64,000 nt of DNA from NCBI GenBank assembly GCA_020355165.1, contig CP070661.1, positions 1 through 64,000 on the forward strand, given 5' to 3'. Of this stretch, positions 27,214 through 41,024 are shown piece after piece (position 1 is the first letter of the stretch; each line of letters opens with the position of its first letter). Under the pieces are notes generated by a model. That model ran no database searches. It saw nothing but the letters and a program-made list of their open reading frames with translations, and was not told where the DNA came from. The position numbers and the translations under genes are program-made. The DNA comes from Burkholderiales bacterium. Its GTDB lineage: Bacteria; Pseudomonadota; Gammaproteobacteria; Burkholderiales; Burkholderiaceae_F.

Positions 27214-30930
<3,717 letters not shown>

Positions 30931-32983: not shown

Positions 32984-33241
32984 CTAGTGCAGCGCGACCG
33001 GCGTGGTCATCACGCCGGTGTAGGCGGCAAGGAAGTCGTCGAGATCCTCGGCCGAGGGCTCGGCGGAAATGAGCTGCTGCACGCTGGTGCGGAACTGCGC
33101 CGCATCGCGCCCGCCGAGGAAGATCTCGCGGCGCAGCGTCTTGTCCATGATCTCGAAGCCGCCGGCCGGATGCTCGCCTTCGGCACCGAAGTCGGTGAAC
33201 TCGACGACACAGAACAGCGGGCTGTTGTAGATGGTTTGCAT
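32984..33241 (-). CDS. DUF3567 family protein
   Basis: An 85-residue protein of the DUF3567 family. Its pattern is diagnostic: MQTIYNSPLFCVVEFTDF, then GGFEIMDKTLRREIFLGG, an acidic helix (FRTSVQQLISAEPSAEDLDDFLAAY) and the terminal MTTPVALH. I know this family only from betaproteobacteria, so it is a useful taxonomic marker. Its function is unknown. The ATG at 33241 is preceded by CAGGT. A 24-bp perfect inverted repeat lies 54-77 bp upstream and may regulate it. Confidence 0.9.
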   Translation of the reverse strand: MQTIYNSPLFCVVEFTDFGAEGEHPAGGFEIMDKTLRREIFLGGRDAAQFRTSVQQLISAEPSAEDLDDFLAAYTGVMTTPVALH

Positions 33242-33380: not shown

Positions 33381-33412
33381 CCGGCGGCGTCAGGGGTCGG
33401 CGGCGTCAGGGG
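33381..33412. repeat. 16-bp tandem direct repeat over the pcaD-like stop codon
   Basis: CGGCGGCGTCAGGGGT (33381-33396) is followed directly by CGGCGGCGTCAGGGGC (33397-33412), with a partial third copy to 33420. The minus-strand stop codon of the hydrolase (33406-33408) lies in the second unit, so the repeat was probably made by slippage at the gene end. Confidence 0.6.
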
Positions 33413-34209
33413 CCGGCGGCGAGGAACTGGCGCAGCGTCGCGTTGAAGTCGGCCGGTTGCTCGACGTTCGACAGGTGGCCAGCACCTTGGATGCGCTGCA
33501 GCCTCGCCTGCGGGATGTGCAGCAGCAGCTGCTCCGCATAGGCGAAGGGAACGACGCGGTCGTCTTCAGCGGCCACCACCAGCACCGGGCAGGTGATCGC
33601 GGCAAGCCGCGTGGTCAGGTCGGCGCGCGACATCGCCGCGATCGCTCCGGCGTAGCCGTCGACCGGGGTGCGCCGCAGTACCTGCACCGAGCGGGCGATG
33701 TCAGCGGCGCGGGTGGCGAAGAAGCCGGCGGTGAACCAGCCGCTGATCGTGGCGTCGATGATGGCGTTCATGCCGAGCGGCGAGCGCACGGCGGCGATCC
33801 GGCTCGCCCAGACCGGTTGCATCTGCGGCGAGAAGCGGCAGGCCGCGCCGGCCAGCGTCAGCGAGGCGATGCGCAGCGGCGTGCGGATCGCTGCCAGCTG
33901 GCCGACCATCGCGCCGAGCGACAGGCCGATGAAGTGGCAGCGCCGGATCGACAGGTGGTCGAGCAGCGCGCGCAGATCGTCGGCCATCTGCTGCAGCGTG
34001 TAGTCGCCGCGCGGCGCCTCGCTGGCGCCGTGCCCGCGCAGGTCGTAGCGCAGGATGTTGCAGGCGCGGCCGAATGCCGCCACCTGCGCGTCCCACATCG
34101 AATGATCATGGCCAAGCGCATGCGCGAACACCAGCCAGGGCCGCGTCGCCGCCAGGTCGCCGTCGACGCGGTAGGCGATGTCGATGCCGTTCAGCCGCGC
34201 ATGCTCCAT
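33406..34209 (-). CDS. 3-oxoadipate enol-lactonase-like alpha/beta hydrolase
   Basis: A 267-residue alpha/beta hydrolase resembling PcaD. The nucleophile lies in FIGLSLGAMVGQLAA, the acid in VVAAEDDRVVPF, and the base in IQGAGHLSNVEQP. The N-terminal LNGIDIAYRVDG and LRYDLRGHGASEAP are typical of enol-lactonases that open beta-ketoadipate enol-lactone in protocatechuate/catechol catabolism. No other pca genes are nearby, so the specific role is uncertain. The ATG follows the stop of the upstream GCPCC protein immediately (34209/34210), so the two are cotranslated. Confidence 0.82.
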   Translation of the reverse strand: MEHARLNGIDIAYRVDGDLAATRPWLVFAHALGHDHSMWDAQVAAFGRACNILRYDLRGHGASEAPRGDYTLQQMADDLRALLDHLSIRRCHFIGLSLGAMVGQLAAIRTPLRIASLTLAGAACRFSPQMQPVWASRIAAVRSPLGMNAIIDATISGWFTAGFFATRAADIARSVQVLRRTPVDGYAGAIAAMSRADLTTRLAAITCPVLVVAAEDDRVVPFAYAEQLLLHIPQARLQRIQGAGHLSNVEQPADFNATLRQFLAAGP

Positions 34210-34578
34210 TCAGTCTTCGACCTCGAAAGGCACGCCCAGTTCGCCGCTGCCGAGCAGGCGCCGCAGGCGCGGCAGGTGCTCGTCGCTGGCCAGCAGCAGC
34301 AGCATGGCCTCGGGGCGGAGGCTGCGTAGCGTACGCGCTAGCGCGACGCGCAGCGCCACCAGGCCGGTGCAGCAGGGACAGCCGGCGCCCAGTCCGACCA
34401 GCGGCACGCCATCCGCTGCGCTGCGGTCGAACAGCGCGCCCTCGACCAGCACCGCGCGACGGCGCGGCGAGCCGGCGGCGGGCGAGCGCAGCCAGGCGTC
34501 GATCGCCAGCTGGCGCGCCGGCACGGTCGCAGCGACCCGCACGGTGACCGACAGGCGGCCCGGCGACAGCGCCGTCAC
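34210..34578 (-). CDS. Small protein with G3E-GTPase-like GCPCC motif, coupled to trkH
   Basis: A 122-residue protein starting at a GTG whose last bases overlap the trkH stop (GTGA, 34575-34578), a classic translational-coupling arrangement. Residues 59-90 (PLVGLGAGCPCCTGLVALRV and the following helix) resemble the region of CobW/COG0523 (G3E) GTPases around their metal-binding GCxCC motif. The pattern of strand, GCPCC, helix and the strand AMLLLLASDEH fits too. There is no Walker A or other P-loop, so it should not hydrolyse GTP. It might bind zinc or a related metal or be a degenerate metallochaperone domain. Function is unknown. Confidence 0.68.
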   Translation of the reverse strand: MTALSPGRLSVTVRVAATVPARQLAIDAWLRSPAAGSPRRRAVLVEGALFDRSAADGVPLVGLGAGCPCCTGLVALRVALARTLRSLRPEAMLLLLASDEHLPRLRRLLGSGELGVPFEVED

Positions 34579-36044
34579 TTGCGCCAGAAGGCAGGGGTGA
34601 ACAGCACCAGCACCGACATCAGCTCGAGCCTGCCGATCATCATGGCGAAGGCGCAGACCCAGGTCTCGAAATCGGTCAGCACGGCGTAGTTGGACACCGG
34701 GCCCACCTGGTTCAGCCCCGGGCCGATGTTGTTCAGGCAGGCGACGACGGCGGTGAAGGCGGTGACCACGTCGAGCCCGGAGACCAGCAGCAGGAAGGTC
34801 AGCCAGGTCAGCGCCGCGCCGTAGATCAGCATGAAGGCGAGCACGGCGAAGATCACGTTGTTCTCGATGACGCGGCCATTGACGGTCACCGGAGCGATCG
34901 AGCGCGGGTGCAGGATGCGCACGAACTCCCGCCGCGCCTGCTTCAGCAGGATCAGCGCGCGGATCATCTTGACGCCGCCGCCAGTGGAGCCGGCGCAGGT
35001 GGCGAAGCCGGCGAGGAACAGCATCATGATCGGCGCGACGATCGGCCACTGGTTGTAGTCGGTGCTGGCGTAGCCGGTGGTGGTGATGATCGACACGCCG
35101 TTGAACAGCGCGTAGCGCAGCGAGGTCGACCAGTCGGGGTAGACGCCGCGCGCGAACAGGAACACGGTCAGTGCCAGCACCGCCAGCACCAGCACGGTCA
35201 GGAAGCCGCGCACCTCGGGGTCGCGCAGGTAAGCCATCGGCGAGCGGGCGCGCCAGACCGTGAAGTGCAGCGCAAAGTTGATCCCGGCCAGCGTCATGAA
35301 CACGACGGCCACCAGCTCGATCGCCACCGAGTCCCAGCGCGCGAAGCTGTGGTCGTGCGACGAGAAGCCGCCGATCCCCATCGTCGTGCACATGTGCATG
35401 AAGGCGTCCGGCCAGTCCATCCCGGCGGCCCGGTAGGCGAGCAGGCACAGCGCCGACAGGCCGACATAGATCGAGTACAGCAGCTTGGCCGTGTCGGCGA
35501 TGCGCGGCGTGAGCTTGGTCTCCTTCATCGGCCCCGCCGACTCGGCGCGGAAGACCTGCGAGCCGCCGACGCCGAGCAGCGGCAGGATGGCCACCGCCAG
35601 CACGATGATCCCCATGCCGCCGATCCACTGCAGCAGGCAGCGCCAGATGTTGATCGACAGCGGCAGCTCGTTCAGCCCGCTGAGCACGGTGGCGCCGGTG
35701 GTGGTCAGCCCGCTCATCGCCTCGAAGTAGGCGTCGGTGAACGACAGGCCCGGCAGGTGCAGGTACAGCGGCAGCGCTGCGAACGCCGGCAGCACCGTCC
35801 ACACCAGCGTCACCAGCAGGAAGCCGTCGCGCGGCAGCAGTTCGCGCCGGAACGGCCGCGTCGCCCACCACACCGCCGCGCCGCCGAGGAAGCTGATCAG
35901 GAAGGCGGTGTCGTAGTCGACCAGCACCTCCTCGTCGGCGACAAAGGCGACCCCCAGCGGCAGCAGCATGGTGATCGCGAAGATCGCGACCACCGCGCCG
36001 AGCATGTTCAGGACCGGCGCGAGCGAGCGGGCGAACGCGTTCAC
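34575..36044 (-). CDS. trkH: TrkH potassium uptake protein
   Basis: The translocating inner-membrane subunit of the Trk K+ uptake system, about 489 residues. The four selectivity-filter regions are recognisable: SGLTTTGATVL, CTTMGIGGFSSHD, SIITTTGYASTDY and ACLNNIGPGLNQVGP, plus the TrkH block FATCAGSTGGGVKMIR. It needs TrkA, which is encoded 5 kb upstream. The start is uncertain: GTG 36044 is preferred because family members begin with the LAPVLNMLG-like segment. TTG 36056 lies in the U-tract of an upstream terminator-like hairpin, and ATG 36005 would trim the N-terminus. None has a clear ribosome site. Confidence 0.92.
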   Translation of the reverse strand: MNAFARSLAPVLNMLGAVVAIFAITMLLPLGVAFVADEEVLVDYDTAFLISFLGGAAVWWATRPFRRELLPRDGFLLVTLVWTVLPAFAALPLYLHLPGLSFTDAYFEAMSGLTTTGATVLSGLNELPLSINIWRCLLQWIGGMGIIVLAVAILPLLGVGGSQVFRAESAGPMKETKLTPRIADTAKLLYSIYVGLSALCLLAYRAAGMDWPDAFMHMCTTMGIGGFSSHDHSFARWDSVAIELVAVVFMTLAGINFALHFTVWRARSPMAYLRDPEVRGFLTVLVLAVLALTVFLFARGVYPDWSTSLRYALFNGVSIITTTGYASTDYNQWPIVAPIMMLFLAGFATCAGSTGGGVKMIRALILLKQARREFVRILHPRSIAPVTVNGRVIENNVIFAVLAFMLIYGAALTWLTFLLLVSGLDVVTAFTAVVACLNNIGPGLNQVGPVSNYAVLTDFETWVCAFAMMIGRLELMSVLVLFTPAFWRK

Positions 36045-36058
36045 CGGCAGCAACAAGC

Positions 36059-36084
36059 AAAAACGGGCGCCGCGATGCGCCCGT
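36059..36084 (-). terminator. Intrinsic terminator immediately upstream of trkH
   Basis: Read on the minus strand, ACGGGCGC (36084-36077) pairs perfectly with GCGCCCGT (36070-36063) over a 6-nt loop and is followed by TTTTT (36063-36059). This is the best Rho-independent terminator in the window. It ends transcripts of the TRAP-amidase-small-protein run, 15-19 bases before the trkH start. Confidence 0.75.
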
Positions 36085-36126
36085 CGTCCGGAGCACGGCG
36101 GTGCTCCATGTCGCGCCGCCGAGGCC

Positions 36127-36291
36127 TCAATCCCGTTCGCGCAGGAACTCGATGAAGTCGTAGGCCATCATCGCCACGCCGATCAGGATCACCGCGACCA
36201 GCGCCACCGACTTGATCTTGACGACGACCGGCGAGACGAACACCAGCATCAACGCGATGCCGACCAGGCCGAAGAGCACTTTGAGCCACAT
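36127..36291 (-). CDS. 54-aa two-TM membrane protein
   Basis: A 54-residue protein made of two hydrophobic segments (WLKVLFGLVGIALMLVFV and SVALVAVILIGVAMMAYDF) separated by a short basic turn (SPVVVKIK) and ending with the charged tail IEFLRERD. I do not recognise a named family. The ATG at 36291 has GGGAGA upstream. It sits 34 bp after the amidase stop and is followed by a strong terminator at 36059-36084, so it looks like the last gene of the dctP-dctQ-dctM-amidase transcript. Confidence 0.7.
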   Translation of the reverse strand: MWLKVLFGLVGIALMLVFVSPVVVKIKSVALVAVILIGVAMMAYDFIEFLRERD

Positions 36292-36325
36292 CTTGGGTCT
36301 CCCGATAGTCGCTGCCGGTTCCGGC

Positions 36326-37669
36326 TCACTGCGTTGGCGCCGCCGCGGCGCAAAGCCAGCGTGCCGTGCGCAGCAGCCGCGCATCGTCGCCGCGCGCGCC
36401 GACCAGCTGGATGCCGAGCGGCAGCCCGTTGTCGCCGCGGGCCAGTGGCAGGCTCAGTGCCGGCATGCCGCAGTAGGTCCACAGGGTCGCCAGCAGCGGA
36501 TCGCCGGTCGAGGCGAGCCCGCGCGGTGCCGTGCCGAGCGTCGCCGGCGTGACGATCGCATCGAAGTTCTCGAACACCGCCTCGAACGCCTCGTTGAGGA
36601 TCGCGACGCGGGCCAGCGCCTTGCGGTAGTCGACGGCCAGCACCTGCCGGCCGCGCTCGATCTGCCCGCGCAGCGATGCCGAGAGCTTCTCCGCCCCCTG
36701 CTCGTACTCGCGCTCGAAGTTCGCCGCCAGGTCGGCCTCGAAGATGGTCCGGTGCCAGTCGACCGCCTGTGCCGCCGACTCCGGCAGGTCGAACGGCTGC
36801 CCCTGCTCGCCGAGCGCCTGCGCCAGCTCGTCGAAGGCCGCGCGCGCGTCGTCATCGAGCCGCGACCAGAACGGAGTGCGCACCAGCGCCAGCCGCGGCG
36901 GCAGCGGCGGGTCCTGCGCCAGCACCTTCGACAGCGGCGGCCGCGTGCGCGGCGGCAGCGTGTCGGCGTCGCCCTCGTCGAAGCCGGCGATGGCCTCGGT
37001 GACCCGGGCGATGTCCTCGAGCGAGCGGGCAAAGACCCCGACGTGGTCGAGTGCGCGCGAAAGCGTCAGCACCCCTGTGCGTGGCACCAGGCCGAACGAC
37101 GGCTTGAAGCCGAACACGCCGCAGAACGATGCCGGCCGGATGATCGAGCCGTTGGTCTGCGAGCCGAGGGCGACCGGCACCATGCCGGCGGCAACCGCCG
37201 CCGCCGAGCCGCTCGAGGAGCCGCCCGGCGTGTGCTCGGGGTCGTGCGGGTTGCGCGTCTTGCCCGGCGAGTAGCTTGCCAGCTCGGTTGTCACCGTCTT
37301 GCCGATCACGACGGCGCCGGCCGTGCGCAGGCGGGCGACCACGGCGGCGTCGCGGCGCGCGACGTGGCCGGCGTGCAGCACCGTGCCGCTTTCCGTCGGC
37401 AGGCCGCGCACGTCGATGATGTCCTTGATGCCGACCGCCACGCCCTGCAGCGGACCTTCGGGCAGCCCACGCATGCGGCACTCGTCGGCATCGCGCGCCT
37501 GCTCGAGCGCGTCCTCGGGCACCAGGTGGGCCCAGGCCTGCACCGCCGGCTCGGCCTCCTCGATGCGGGCGAGGCAGGCGCGGACGTGCTCCTCGGCGGT
37601 GAGCGCCCCGTCGGCGACCAGACGCGCCGTCTCGGTCGCCGTCAGCCAGTTCAGGCGTGCCGCGTCCAT
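36326..37669 (-). CDS. Amidase signature family hydrolase
   Basis: A 447-residue amidase-signature enzyme with the Ser-cisSer-Lys triad at the right spacing: Lys82 (VGIKDIIDVRGLPTESGT), cis-Ser151 (HTPGGSSSGSAAAVAAG) and the nucleophile Ser175 (ALGSQTNGSIIRPASFCGV). It hydrolyses an amide to ammonia and a carboxylate; the substrate is not evident, and GatA is unlikely because gatB and gatC are absent. The start lies 6 bp after the dctM stop, so it is cotranscribed with the TRAP transporter. A natural reading is that the transported compound is its substrate or product. Confidence 0.9.
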   Translation of the reverse strand: MDAARLNWLTATETARLVADGALTAEEHVRACLARIEEAEPAVQAWAHLVPEDALEQARDADECRMRGLPEGPLQGVAVGIKDIIDVRGLPTESGTVLHAGHVARRDAAVVARLRTAGAVVIGKTVTTELASYSPGKTRNPHDPEHTPGGSSSGSAAAVAAGMVPVALGSQTNGSIIRPASFCGVFGFKPSFGLVPRTGVLTLSRALDHVGVFARSLEDIARVTEAIAGFDEGDADTLPPRTRPPLSKVLAQDPPLPPRLALVRTPFWSRLDDDARAAFDELAQALGEQGQPFDLPESAAQAVDWHRTIFEADLAANFEREYEQGAEKLSASLRGQIERGRQVLAVDYRKALARVAILNEAFEAVFENFDAIVTPATLGTAPRGLASTGDPLLATLWTYCGMPALSLPLARGDNGLPLGIQLVGARGDDARLLRTARWLCAAAAPTQ

Positions 37670-37675
37670 CGCCGG

Positions 37676-39025
37676 TCAGTTGCCGTACAGCGCGTTCGGC
37701 AGCCACTCGTAGCTGGCCGGGAACACGTAGACGATGAACATCGTCACGAAGACGAAGACCAGGAACTGCAGGCAGCCGCGGAAGATGGTCGTCAGCTGGA
37801 TGTGTGGCGGCGCGATCCCTTTCAGGTAGTAGGCCGACATCGCCATCGGCGGCGTCAGGAACGAGGTCTGCAGGTTCAGCGCCACCAGCACGCCGAACAG
37901 GATCGGGTCGATCTCGAAGTGCGGCAGCAGCGGCAGGAAGATCGGCACGAAGATGATGATGATCTCGCTCCACTCCAGCGGCCAGCCGAGCAGGAAGATG
38001 ATGAACTGCGACAGCAGCAGGAAGGTGACCGGGCCGAGGTCCAGGCCGAGCACGAATTCCTTGATCACGCCCTCGCCGCCGAGGTAGGAGAACACCGACG
38101 AGAAGGTCCACGAGCCGACGAACAGGTAGCAGACCATCGCCGAGGTGCGGGCGGTGAGGAACACCGCCTCCTTCAGTCGCGGCCAAGTGAGCGCCCGGTA
38201 AGCGGCGGCGAGCGCCATGCCGCCGAAGGCGCCGACCGCGGCGGCCTCGGTCGGCGTTGCCAGGCCGAACAGGATCGCGCCGAGCACCGACAGGATCAGG
38301 ATGGCCAGCGGGAAGAACGCCTTGAGCAGCAGGATCACGGTGCTGATGAAGCCGATCTCCGCGACTGCCTCCTTGGACAGTTTGGGCATCAGCTTCGGGT
38401 TCAGCGTCGCGCGCAGGATCACGTAGCCGATGTAGAAGCCGGCCAGCAGGAAGCCGGGCACCAGTGCCGCGGCGTAGAGCTTGACCACCGACACCGCGGC
38501 GGTGGCGGCGTAGACGATCAGCATGATCGACGGCGGGATCAGGATGCCGAGCGTGCCGCCGGCGCAGATCAGGCCGGCCGACATCCTCTCGTCGTAACCG
38601 GCCTTCAGCATCGCCGGGAAGGCGAGCAGGCCCATCAGCGTCACCACGGCGCCGACGATGCCGGTGGCGGTGGCGAACAGGGCGCAGGTCAGCAGCGCCG
38701 CCACCGCCATCGAGCCGGGGATCCGGCGCAGCGAGACCTGCAGGCTGTAGAAGAGCTGGTCGAGGATGTTGGCCCGCTCGATCACGTAGCCCATGAAGAG
38801 GAACAACGGCACCGCCACCAGGACGTCGTTGTTCATGATCGAGAAGGTGTTCTGCGTCAGCAGGTAGAAGACCCGGTTGTCGAAGAACGCCTGATCGGGG
38901 CGGAAGTAGGCGTAGTAGCCGAACCCCACCCCCATCGCCATCAGCGTGAAGGCGATCGGGAAGCCGAGCATGATGATGAAGATGAACGCGCCCAGCATCA
39001 GCAGGGCGACTTGCGGATCGCTCAT
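37676..39025 (-). CDS. dctM: TRAP transporter large permease subunit (DctM-like)
   Basis: A 449-residue polytopic membrane protein of the DctM type, about 12-13 TM segments. Landmarks include the N-terminal VALLMLGAFIFIIMLGFPIAFTL, FLFMGYVIERANILDQLFYSLQ, ATGIVGAVVTLMGLLAFPAM, CAGGTLGILIPPSIMLIVYA, and ATPTEAAAVGAFGGM. It forms the Na+-coupled translocation channel with DctQ. Its ATG overlaps the dctQ stop (39022-39025, ATGA), so stoichiometric coupling is expected. The amidase gene follows 6 bp downstream. Confidence 0.95.
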   Translation of the reverse strand: MSDPQVALLMLGAFIFIIMLGFPIAFTLMAMGVGFGYYAYFRPDQAFFDNRVFYLLTQNTFSIMNNDVLVAVPLFLFMGYVIERANILDQLFYSLQVSLRRIPGSMAVAALLTCALFATATGIVGAVVTLMGLLAFPAMLKAGYDERMSAGLICAGGTLGILIPPSIMLIVYAATAAVSVVKLYAAALVPGFLLAGFYIGYVILRATLNPKLMPKLSKEAVAEIGFISTVILLLKAFFPLAILILSVLGAILFGLATPTEAAAVGAFGGMALAAAYRALTWPRLKEAVFLTARTSAMVCYLFVGSWTFSSVFSYLGGEGVIKEFVLGLDLGPVTFLLLSQFIIFLLGWPLEWSEIIIIFVPIFLPLLPHFEIDPILFGVLVALNLQTSFLTPPMAMSAYYLKGIAPPHIQLTTIFRGCLQFLVFVFVTMFIVYVFPASYEWLPNALYGN

Positions 39026-39618
39026 TGGCCGCTCCCCTTCGGCTGCTGCGCCGCGGCGGCGTGCTGCTGCGCGACCGCGACTTCCAGTTCCTCTACGTCA
39101 TGCAGGCGGGCCGGCCAGGCGCCGTCGCGCAGGCACACCACGCAACGCAGCACCTCGGCCACGCCCTGCAGGGCGAGGAAGAAGGCGGCGAACGGGATCA
39201 TCAGCTTCAGCTGCCAGATCGGCACGCCGACCGGGCTGTTGACGCTCACCTCCTGGATGCGCATCGACTCGGCGCCGTAGTCCCAGCCGGCGTACATCAG
39301 CGCCAGCACGCCGGGGAAGAAGAAGATGAAGTACAGCACCAGCTCGAGGCTGGCCTGCACGCGCACCGGCCACAGGCGGTAGAAGACGTCGCCGCGCACG
39401 TGCGCGTTGCGCGATAGCGCATAGGCGCCGGCCATCAGGAACAGCGCGCCGTACATGATGTAGCTCATGTCGAACGCCCAGCTGGTCGGGTCGCGCAGCA
39501 CGTAGCGGACGAAGACCTCGTAGGTGGTGCCGAAGGTCAGGATGATGATGCACCACGCGAAGGCGTGGCCGATCGCCTTGCTCAGGCGGTCGATGTTGAG
39601 GATGAAGCTTTCGATCAT
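39022..39618 (-). CDS. dctQ: TRAP transporter small permease subunit (DctQ-like)
   Basis: A 198-residue, four-TM DctQ protein. The typical TM segments are AIGHAFAWCIIILTFGTTYEVFVRYVL, SYIMYGALFLMAGAYALSRNAHVRGDVFY, LELVLYFIFFFPGVLALMYAGW and the late IWQLKLMIPFAAFFLALQGVAEVLRC. The RNAHVRGDVF block between TM2 and TM3 is diagnostic. The C-terminal tail is longer and Gln/Ala-rich. It is translated between dctP and dctM; a strong hairpin precedes its start on the minus strand. Confidence 0.94.
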   Translation of the reverse strand: MIESFILNIDRLSKAIGHAFAWCIIILTFGTTYEVFVRYVLRDPTSWAFDMSYIMYGALFLMAGAYALSRNAHVRGDVFYRLWPVRVQASLELVLYFIFFFPGVLALMYAGWDYGAESMRIQEVSVNSPVGVPIWQLKLMIPFAAFFLALQGVAEVLRCVVCLRDGAWPARLHDVEELEVAVAQQHAAAAQQPKGSGQ

Positions 39619-39649
39619 CGGGGCACCTCATCGGCCGTTGACGCGCAAA

Positions 39650-39671
39650 CGGGGTGGCTGTCGCCACCCCG
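39650..39671 (-). terminator. Intercistronic hairpin between dctP and dctQ
   Basis: CGGGGTGGC (39650-39658) and GCCACCCCG (39663-39671) form a perfect 9-bp stem with a 4-nt loop. It sits in the 123-bp dctP-dctQ gap, 71 bp past the dctP stop. The following minus-strand bases are TTTGCG, so only partial termination or mRNA stabilisation is likely. The same layout occurs after the TAXI gene. Confidence 0.65.
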
Positions 39672-39741
39672 CTTCTGATGCTAACGGCGCCGGCGGCTGC
39701 GCCGCGCGGCGACGTTGTGGCTTCTCCTCAGGTATGTGCCG

Positions 39742-40875
39742 TCAGAAACCGAGCTTGCCGAAGATGTGCTCGTAGCCGAGCTTGTAATCGGCGTCGTTGA
39801 GGAACCAGTACTTGGCCACCCGCCTGGCCCAGGCGCGCTGGCTGTCGACCACCTTCTTGAAGAACGGATCCTCGTCGGACAGCCGCTTGTTGATCACGTC
39901 CCAGGCCTTGATCTGCGCCTCGAAGATCGACTTCGGCGTGCGCAGGACGTTGACCTTGTCCTTGTTGATCAGCTCGTCGAGGTCGCGCGAGTAGTTGTCC
40001 ATCGCCGTCCAGAAGTTCGACGCCGAAGCGGCTTCGACGCCGTAGCGCATGATCGCCTTGAGGTCGGCCGACAGCGTGTCGTGCTTCTGCTTGTTGATGA
40101 TGATCTCGAAGAACTCCATCGCCTGGTGGAAGCTGCCCATCATGTAGTTCTTGGCCACGTCCTGGGCGCCGAAGCGGCGGTCGGAGGTCGGGTTGTTGAA
40201 CTCGAAGGCCTCGATCACGCCGCGCTCCATCGCCGGCACGATCTCGCCGCCGGGCAGCTGCGTGACCTTCAGCCCCATCTCCTGCATCAGGTCGGCAGCC
40301 AGGCCGACGGTGCGGTACTTCAGGCCGACCATGTCCTTGGCCGTGGTGACCGGCTTCTTGAACCAGCCGAGCGGCTGGGTCGGCATCGGCATCGCGAAGT
40401 AGCCGACCACGTTCAGCTTCAGCTTCTGCAGCAGCTCGTTGTACAGCTCGAGGCCGCCGCCGCGATAGATCCACGCCAGCGTCTGCTGGGCGTCGCAGCC
40501 GTTGATCGGGCCGGAGCCGAACAGCGACGCCACCTTGCTCTTGCCGTACCAGTACACCGGCACGCTGTGGCCGGCGTCGAGCACGCCCTTGGACACCGCG
40601 TCCATCACCTCGAACGGCTTGACCACCGCGCCGCCGACCAGATAGTCGATGCGCAGCCGGCCGCCGGCCATCTCATTCACGCGCTTGACGTACTCCTCGG
40701 CCATCTCGTTGAAGATGTCCTTGGCGCCCCACGAGCCCTGCATCTTGATCACGACCGGCGACTGCGCGACCGACACCATCGGTACGGCCAGGGCGGCGGC
40801 GCCGGCGGCTGCTGTCGCGCCGAGGAAACGGCGGCGTTGGGGCTTTTGCGAAGGCTGAGTGACTTGCTCGGTCAT
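39742..40875 (-). CDS. dctP: TRAP transporter substrate-binding protein (DctP family, TakP-like)
   Basis: A 377-residue periplasmic binding protein exported by the Tat pathway: the signal is RRRFLGATAAAGAAALAVPM, followed by an Ala-rich cleavage region. The mature protein has the DctP blocks KYRTVGLAADLMQEMG and LPGGEIVPAMERGVIEAFE, then NNPTSDRRFG. LPGGEI with these neighbours recalls TakP/2-oxo acid-binding members, so a small carboxylate or oxo-acid ligand is plausible. The ATG at 40875 has AAGGAG upstream. It is the first gene of the dctPQM-amidase-small protein transcript, preceded by a leader with direct repeats and a hairpin. Confidence 0.93.
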   Translation of the reverse strand: MTEQVTQPSQKPQRRRFLGATAAAGAAALAVPMVSVAQSPVVIKMQGSWGAKDIFNEMAEEYVKRVNEMAGGRLRIDYLVGGAVVKPFEVMDAVSKGVLDAGHSVPVYWYGKSKVASLFGSGPINGCDAQQTLAWIYRGGGLELYNELLQKLKLNVVGYFAMPMPTQPLGWFKKPVTTAKDMVGLKYRTVGLAADLMQEMGLKVTQLPGGEIVPAMERGVIEAFEFNNPTSDRRFGAQDVAKNYMMGSFHQAMEFFEIIINKQKHDTLSADLKAIMRYGVEAASASNFWTAMDNYSRDLDELINKDKVNVLRTPKSIFEAQIKAWDVINKRLSDEDPFFKKVVDSQRAWARRVAKYWFLNDADYKLGYEHIFGKLGF

Positions 40876-40907
40876 GGTTTGGGTCTCCTTGTTTTGACTG
40901 CGAGGTA

Positions 40908-40935
40908 AAACACGTAGCCGAAACACGTAAGGCCG
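40908..40935. repeat. AAACACGTA tandem direct repeat in the dctP leader
   Basis: AAACACGTAGCCG (40908-40920) is followed directly by AAACACGTAAGGCCG (40921-40935), 33-60 bp upstream of the dctP ATG. The adjacent, near-identical copies suggest a tandem regulator site overlapping the leader. Confidence 0.45.
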
Positions 40936-40937
40936 AA

Positions 40938-40961
40938 TCGGGACGGGCGTGCTCGTCCCGA
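40938..40961 (-). promoter_or_regulatory. 8-bp leader hairpin upstream of dctP
   Basis: TCGGGACG (40938-40945) pairs perfectly with CGTCCCGA (40954-40961) across an 8-nt loop. It lies in the untranslated leader between the candidate promoter and the dctP start. It could be a leader stem that tunes expression; the ligand or protein is unknown. Confidence 0.4.
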
Positions 40962-41024
40962 CCAACCCGCGTTGCCCTTGGCAGGGCGGCCGGGTTCCCG
41001 GGCCACCGCCGAGGTTGAAAAACG

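Follow-up and report, generated by a model that had tools for sequence, protein, structure and literature searches.

Genomic neighbourhood and conservation of gene X

The window (the whole 64,000-nucleotide stretch of Burkholderiales DNA analysed here) contains a short frame, which we designate gene X, lying between trkH and a pcaD-like gene (Table 1). The initial annotation had set a 122-aa frame with a GTG start on the trkH stop and against the pcaD-like start; our coordinates agree with this, and the strand is minus. The GTG of gene X at 34578 overlaps the TGA of trkH (GCGCAAGTGACG), and the ATG of the pcaD-like gene at 34209 follows directly after the gene X TGA (34212-34210). The upstream protein was assigned to TrkH by PF02386 (E value, 1.5e-68), and the downstream hydrolase is near PcaD (TIGR02427, 244 bits, slightly below the cut-off of 255.85). 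A search for a promoter-like site between trkH and gene X was negative. The GC3 value of the frame is 0.89, which is coding-like.

Table 1. Positions of gene X, its sequence features, its neighbours and a second group of P-loop-less proteins
Feature	Coordinates	Strand	Remarks
Gene X	34210..34578	-	P-loop-less COG0523-like stub, 122 aa, GTG start
Residues 9-31 of gene X	34486..34554	-	First strand and first helix, with the decayed P-loop segment; VTVRVAATVPARQLAIDAWLRSP
E46 of gene X	34441..34443	-	Acidic residue, almost invariant, that ends strand 2 and lies near the position of YjiA E37/E39, the alignment register being uncertain by one residue
GCPCC, residues 66-70 of gene X	34369..34383	-	CxCC motif
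H101 of gene X	34276..34278	-	Invariant in 28/28 stubs
trkH	34575..36056	-	Upstream of gene X; its stop and the gene X start share 4 bases
pcaD-like gene	33406..34209	-	Alpha/beta hydrolase; start abuts the gene X stop; syntenic only in most of the window's family
DUF3567 gene	32984..33241	-	Downstream neighbour of gene X conserved in most families; start set at the ATG of MQTIYNS
metH	27214..30930	-	Within the conserved gene X neighbourhood
P-loop-less COG0523-like genes of family f46	L091:4296-4889; L092:3835-4389; L093:3668-4219; L094:1267-1845; L101:3837-4415	+; -; +; +; +	Other locus

Upstream of trkH in the window (36056-40965, minus strand) are an 85-aa frame and amidase-like and TRAP-transporter-like genes, not ntrYX-trkA; several other genomes of this family likewise have TRAP-like genes next to trkH. 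A second TrkH gene lies just past the window in the same genome (C1:71257-72570, minus strand), and a search of this genome for a second copy of gene X found none.

A search of 60 relatives identified orthologues of gene X within the same GTDB family at 45-64% identity; in a comparison with TrkH, gene X shows 44-64% identity and TrkH 68-84%. These orthologues adjoin trkH wherever the contig spans that side, and in most cases the pcaD-like gene and the DUF3567 gene come next. In 8 of the 9 other family members with a readable junction, the start of gene X and the trkH stop share four bases (GTGA or ATGA). Across the family as a whole, TrkH was found in 44 of 67 genomes and gene X in 11 of 67. 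Alignment of 28 stub orthologues revealed that C67, C70, R82, R85 and H101 are invariant and that E46 and C69 are nearly so. In close pairs from other genera, dN/dS was 0.24-0.33 by a simple counting method. Constraint was highest over the CxCC-helix 2-strand 3 segment and lowest over the former P-loop part and, in the window's family, over the tail. At long distances within that family pN/pS was high (0.79 overall and 0.91 in the former P-loop part), many of these comparisons being near saturation. Gene X is a real, conserved gene under purifying selection.

Relationship to the COG0523 GTPases

In the COG0523/CobW branch of the G3E GTPases (YjiA, YeiR, CobW, ZigA/ZagA and Nha3), the N-terminal half of the G domain is homologous to gene X, and the CxCC motif lies between strand 2 and helix 2, the same place that it occupies in gene X. 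The initial annotation had suggested a G3E link, and profile-profile comparison upheld it: a profile of the stubs aligned with a canonical COG0523 profile with an hhalign E value of 6.6e-18 over 119 columns, all within the first 128 canonical residues. That annotation had also described a separated metal-binding module of residues 59-100. Instead, residues 7-122 match the G3E G domain, starting with the first strand of that domain, and the P-loop segment falls inside the alignment. The absence of a P-loop, noted at the outset, thus takes the form of a segment that is retained in place yet decayed; orthologues have VTGASAAAREAAI here versus the canonical VTGFLGVGKTTAL, and in the alignment Massilia has VTLVTGASAAAREAAI versus VNIVTGFLGVGKTTAL.

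The stub profile also matched P-loop-bearing COG0523 proteins across the order (E values, 1e-9 to 1e-17), and the LRVxLxRLLR helix of gene X is common to close Burkholderiales COG0523 proteins. In 323 genomes of the class that lie outside the order, every match had a frame of at least 309 aa. Pfam cobW was touched by 24 of 28 gene X members (best E value, 2e-5); the window protein scored an E value of 0.11 against PF02492 (cobW), its 12.4 bits being below the gathering cut-off of 20.7, and searches of Pfam, NCBIfam and PADLOC with this protein yielded nothing above cut-off. A profile search of PDB sequences returned YjiA as its sole match, a weak one (E value, 0.37), and a plasmid search with gene X returned no match.

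COG0523/CobW proteins are about 320-400 aa long versus the 122 aa of gene X. The window protein carries the CxCC motif (GCPCC), and gene X, unlike the COG0523/CobW proteins, is without Walker A, the Walker B glutamate and NKxD; it also has neither the rest of the G domain, past its first half, nor a C-terminal client domain. At the place of Walker A (GxxGxGK[ST]) stands AATVPARQ, and at that of Walker B (hhhExxG) stands LLLLASDEH versus the canonical LLIEPSGLGH, in which the E and G are invariant. [NST]KxD is absent together with the half of the domain that carries it, and the frame stops 56 residues past the CxCC motif. NKxD was likewise found in none of the 13 longer gene X proteins versus 12 of 15 canonical controls. 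Judged by these sequence comparisons, the CxCC likeness of gene X to COG0523/G3E is homology. Gene X is what erosion has left of a COG0523 G domain, namely its N-terminal half with a decayed P-loop; it is a COG0523 descendant, but it is not to be called a COG0523 GTPase.

A precedent is Rv0106 of Mycobacterium tuberculosis, a COG0523-like protein reportedly devoid of both GTPase motifs (Haas et al. 2009, PMC2770081). Compared by its description, Rv0106 has lost the second CxCC cysteine (CxSC), whereas gene X keeps CxCC; Rv0106 is Zur repressed, whereas gene X lies in an ntrYX/trk locus (PMC2770081).

The structure of the window protein was predicted with AlphaFold from 28 sequences (pLDDT 86, pTM 0.81); a model of a Massilia orthologue reached pLDDT 89 and pTM 0.84. 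The window model comprises strand 9-15, helix 19-31, strand 41-46, strand 60-63, the CxCC loop, helix 73-87, strand 91-96, helix 102-111 and strand 118-121, so that the strand-GCxCC-helix-strand pattern proposed initially was recovered. In Foldseek searches of the PDB, the Massilia model gave YjiA as the top match (probability, 0.97), with a weak E value (0.013 at best). By VIA, this model aligned with YjiA residues 1-129 (Z, 7.4-7.6), with UreG, HypB and MeaB/MMAA also listed, and the window model aligned with YjiA residues 2-125 at a Z of 6.6; the Z values of both models are below 8, in a range where common arrangements score too. SRP GTPases, which belong to the SIMIBI class as well, score at a similar level, as do a few further alpha/beta folds, and other SIMIBI GTPases tie with or outscore YjiA; for the window model alone, Foldseek and VIA both placed SRP GTPases above YjiA, and the unrelated Sua5 and precorrin methyltransferases appeared at similar Z. 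The predicted fold would be that of the first, N-terminal half of a G domain of the SIMIBI/G3E kind; the initial annotation had made its proposal depend on a G3E-like fold. The fold result supports G3E ancestry in the sense of being consistent with it, not as proof; we assign that ancestry because of sequence and synteny, not the fold search alone.

Gene X across Burkholderiales

The order of the locus across Burkholderiales is rsmB, DUF4390, ntrY, ntrX, with or without trkA-trkH, then gene X and DUF3567, and metH is often near. The Bordetella plrSR (ntrYX)-trkAH cluster has the same order, rsmB-DUF4390-ntrY-ntrX-trkA-trkH (PMC13001219). The study covers six genes, shows an unnamed gene on the same strand 79 bp past trkH and, in its available portion, describes no COG0523-like gene at the cluster (PMC13001219). 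Our literature search found no description of gene X at the ntrYX-trkAH locus, an absence that is not proof.

Among 48 syntenic copies, CxCC was present in 47 and CxHC in 1, and the P-loop was present in 5 and absent from 43. The initial annotation had made its proposal depend on the cysteine pair persisting in orthologues, as it does here. The one altered motif is GCLHC (L052/L105), in which the second cysteine is replaced by histidine. At one extreme the copies are full-length, COG0523-like and equipped with a P-loop, and at the other they are stubs of about 90-140 aa; full-length proteins that lack the P-loop stand in between. Family f10 contains full-length proteins with a P-loop (L103, L156, L157 and L159; all above the Pfam cobW cut-off, with E values of 2.9e-26 to 7.5e-16) and others nearly as long in which the P-loop is lost (L152, L153, L154, L170 and L192). 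Family f11 contains a 112-aa stub with an intact GAPGPGKS (L097) and stubs without a P-loop. In L097 (4340-4675, plus strand), GAPGPGKS and ACPCC are kept and the switch I/strand 2 segment is deleted; here, truncation came before P-loop loss.

A tree of 65 sequences separated gene X from canonical COG0523 proteins by one branch (98/99). The P-loop state changes at least four times on this tree, for which the alignment is short (124 columns) and the branching within gene X loose. Since regain of a P-loop is implausible, these changes point to repeated loss; the P-loop has been lost several times at one chromosomal locus while the Cys motif was kept. A second P-loop-less COG0523-like group was observed at another locus, in family f46 (Table 1); its proteins are 183-197 aa long, with NGC[AV]CC in those displayed, and the group may represent an independent instance of this loss.

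The coupling to trkH described initially stands in one respect, in that the overlap is conserved in the window's family, but it is not essential. In family f8 and in named Massilia, the stub comes directly after ntrX, with no trkH between; a four-sequence profile search of genome contigs had returned ten loci, five of them from Massilia. Coupling to trkH is therefore lineage specific. A functional tie to potassium transport was set aside because many genera have ntrX-gene X without trkH. MetH is a cobalamin enzyme and zinc dependent, and a tie to it was considered from the shared neighbourhood; gene orientation near metH varies, and no evidence links the two. The presumed steady co-expression with ntrX or trkH suggests a possible role for gene X with the NtrX/Trk systems.

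Gene X is missing from some genomes in which its neighbours stay, DUF3567 directly following ntrX-trkA-trkH in L194 and following ntrX in L195 and L187, and it is dispensable in some lineages. These absences, together with the graded shortening, the repeated P-loop loss and the fast evolution relative to TrkH, would suit a relic: a redundant COG0523 paralogue in the course of being lost from Burkholderiales, the stubs being late stages with little function. We consider this unlikely, given that about 48 copies have open frames, that the CxCC motif and, in every stub, the histidine persist, that dN/dS is low in close pairs and that the start-stop coupling has been kept.

A putative metal site without a nucleotide switch

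The reading that we prefer, with a probability of roughly 0.6, is that gene X encodes a putative pseudo-GTPase metal-binding accessory, which derives from a COG0523 metallochaperone and works without nucleotide. Its ancestor would be a full-length COG0523 metallochaperone GTPase encoded downstream of ntrYX-trkAH in Burkholderiales. The window protein has been reduced to strand 1, helix 1, strand 2, the CxCC loop, helix 2, strand 3 and helix 3. It has lost the client domain at the C terminus as well as Walker A, Walker B and NKxD, and it retains the cysteines of CxCC, an acidic residue close to them and a His after strand 3. The fold results include a PDB entry titled as the YjiA E37A, C66A, C67A mutant, which suggests that an acidic residue near the E46 position is part of the YjiA metal site. 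With the P-loop lost and three cysteines, E46 and H101 kept, the most economical explanation is a putative metal site independent of nucleotide. The protein may bind a thiophilic metal, most likely Zn(II), at a predicted standing site formed by CxCC, with H101 and E46 as possible additions; such a site would need no nucleotide switch and perhaps spans a dimer. Produced alongside NtrX or the Trk proteins encoded upstream, the accessory might pass metal to a client or report it.

Studies of the canonical proteins count against such a role. In CobW, the tight metal site is built by Mg-GTP and is absent without nucleotide (PMC7895991), and for nucleotide-free YjiA the CxCC is described as adopting a conformation in which metal is unlikely to be held (PMC7689651). 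Metal binding by a stub that lacks the P-loop might therefore be poor. The CxHC exception fits the metal reading, since the replacing histidine could also bind metal. It is conceivable, if doubtful, that the CxCC site was freed repeatedly from the GTPase switch and that the half-domain binds metal constitutively as a metal-responsive accessory of NtrYX/Trk.

Degenerate septins act in septin assemblies as regulatory halves, and gene X might by analogy be a regulatory half whose partner is either a canonical COG0523 protein in its own cell or another molecule of itself, and carry no metal. The degeneration of GTPases into pseudo-GTPases is a known process (PMC10731463); the half G domain retains strand 1 to helix 3, and the genome has other proteins above the Pfam cobW cut-off (7 matches). 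The strongest constraint nevertheless sits on the CxCC segment, and we regard such pairing as distinctly unlikely. Thiol redox chemistry is more improbable still: CxCC could make a disulfide, and coupling to a sensor-regulator or ion-transport operon would suit a small redox-responsive subunit of Trk or NtrYX, but descent from a metal-site CxCC, the CxHC orthologue and the conserved H101 suit a metal better. That gene X is a spurious frame, open by chance in GC-rich DNA and with a fortuitous GCPCC, as antisense frames of similar length overlapping it might suggest, is refuted by the series of orthologues, with their purifying selection and conserved start-stop overlap, and has next to no probability in view of the GC3 value and the confident fold.

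As a candidate nucleotide-independent metal-binding accessory, gene X is an overlooked, translationally coupled addition to the ntrYX-trkAH neighbourhood, and it carries a warning that small "hypothetical" genes near ntrYX-trkAH escape the Pfam cobW cut-off. The way in which nucleotide shapes the CxCC site is still under discussion (PMC7689651). The persistence of CxCC long after the loss of the P-loop is a natural experiment on whether the site can work without GTP, and the gene X lineage offers full-length, P-loop-less and stub orthologues for side-by-side testing.
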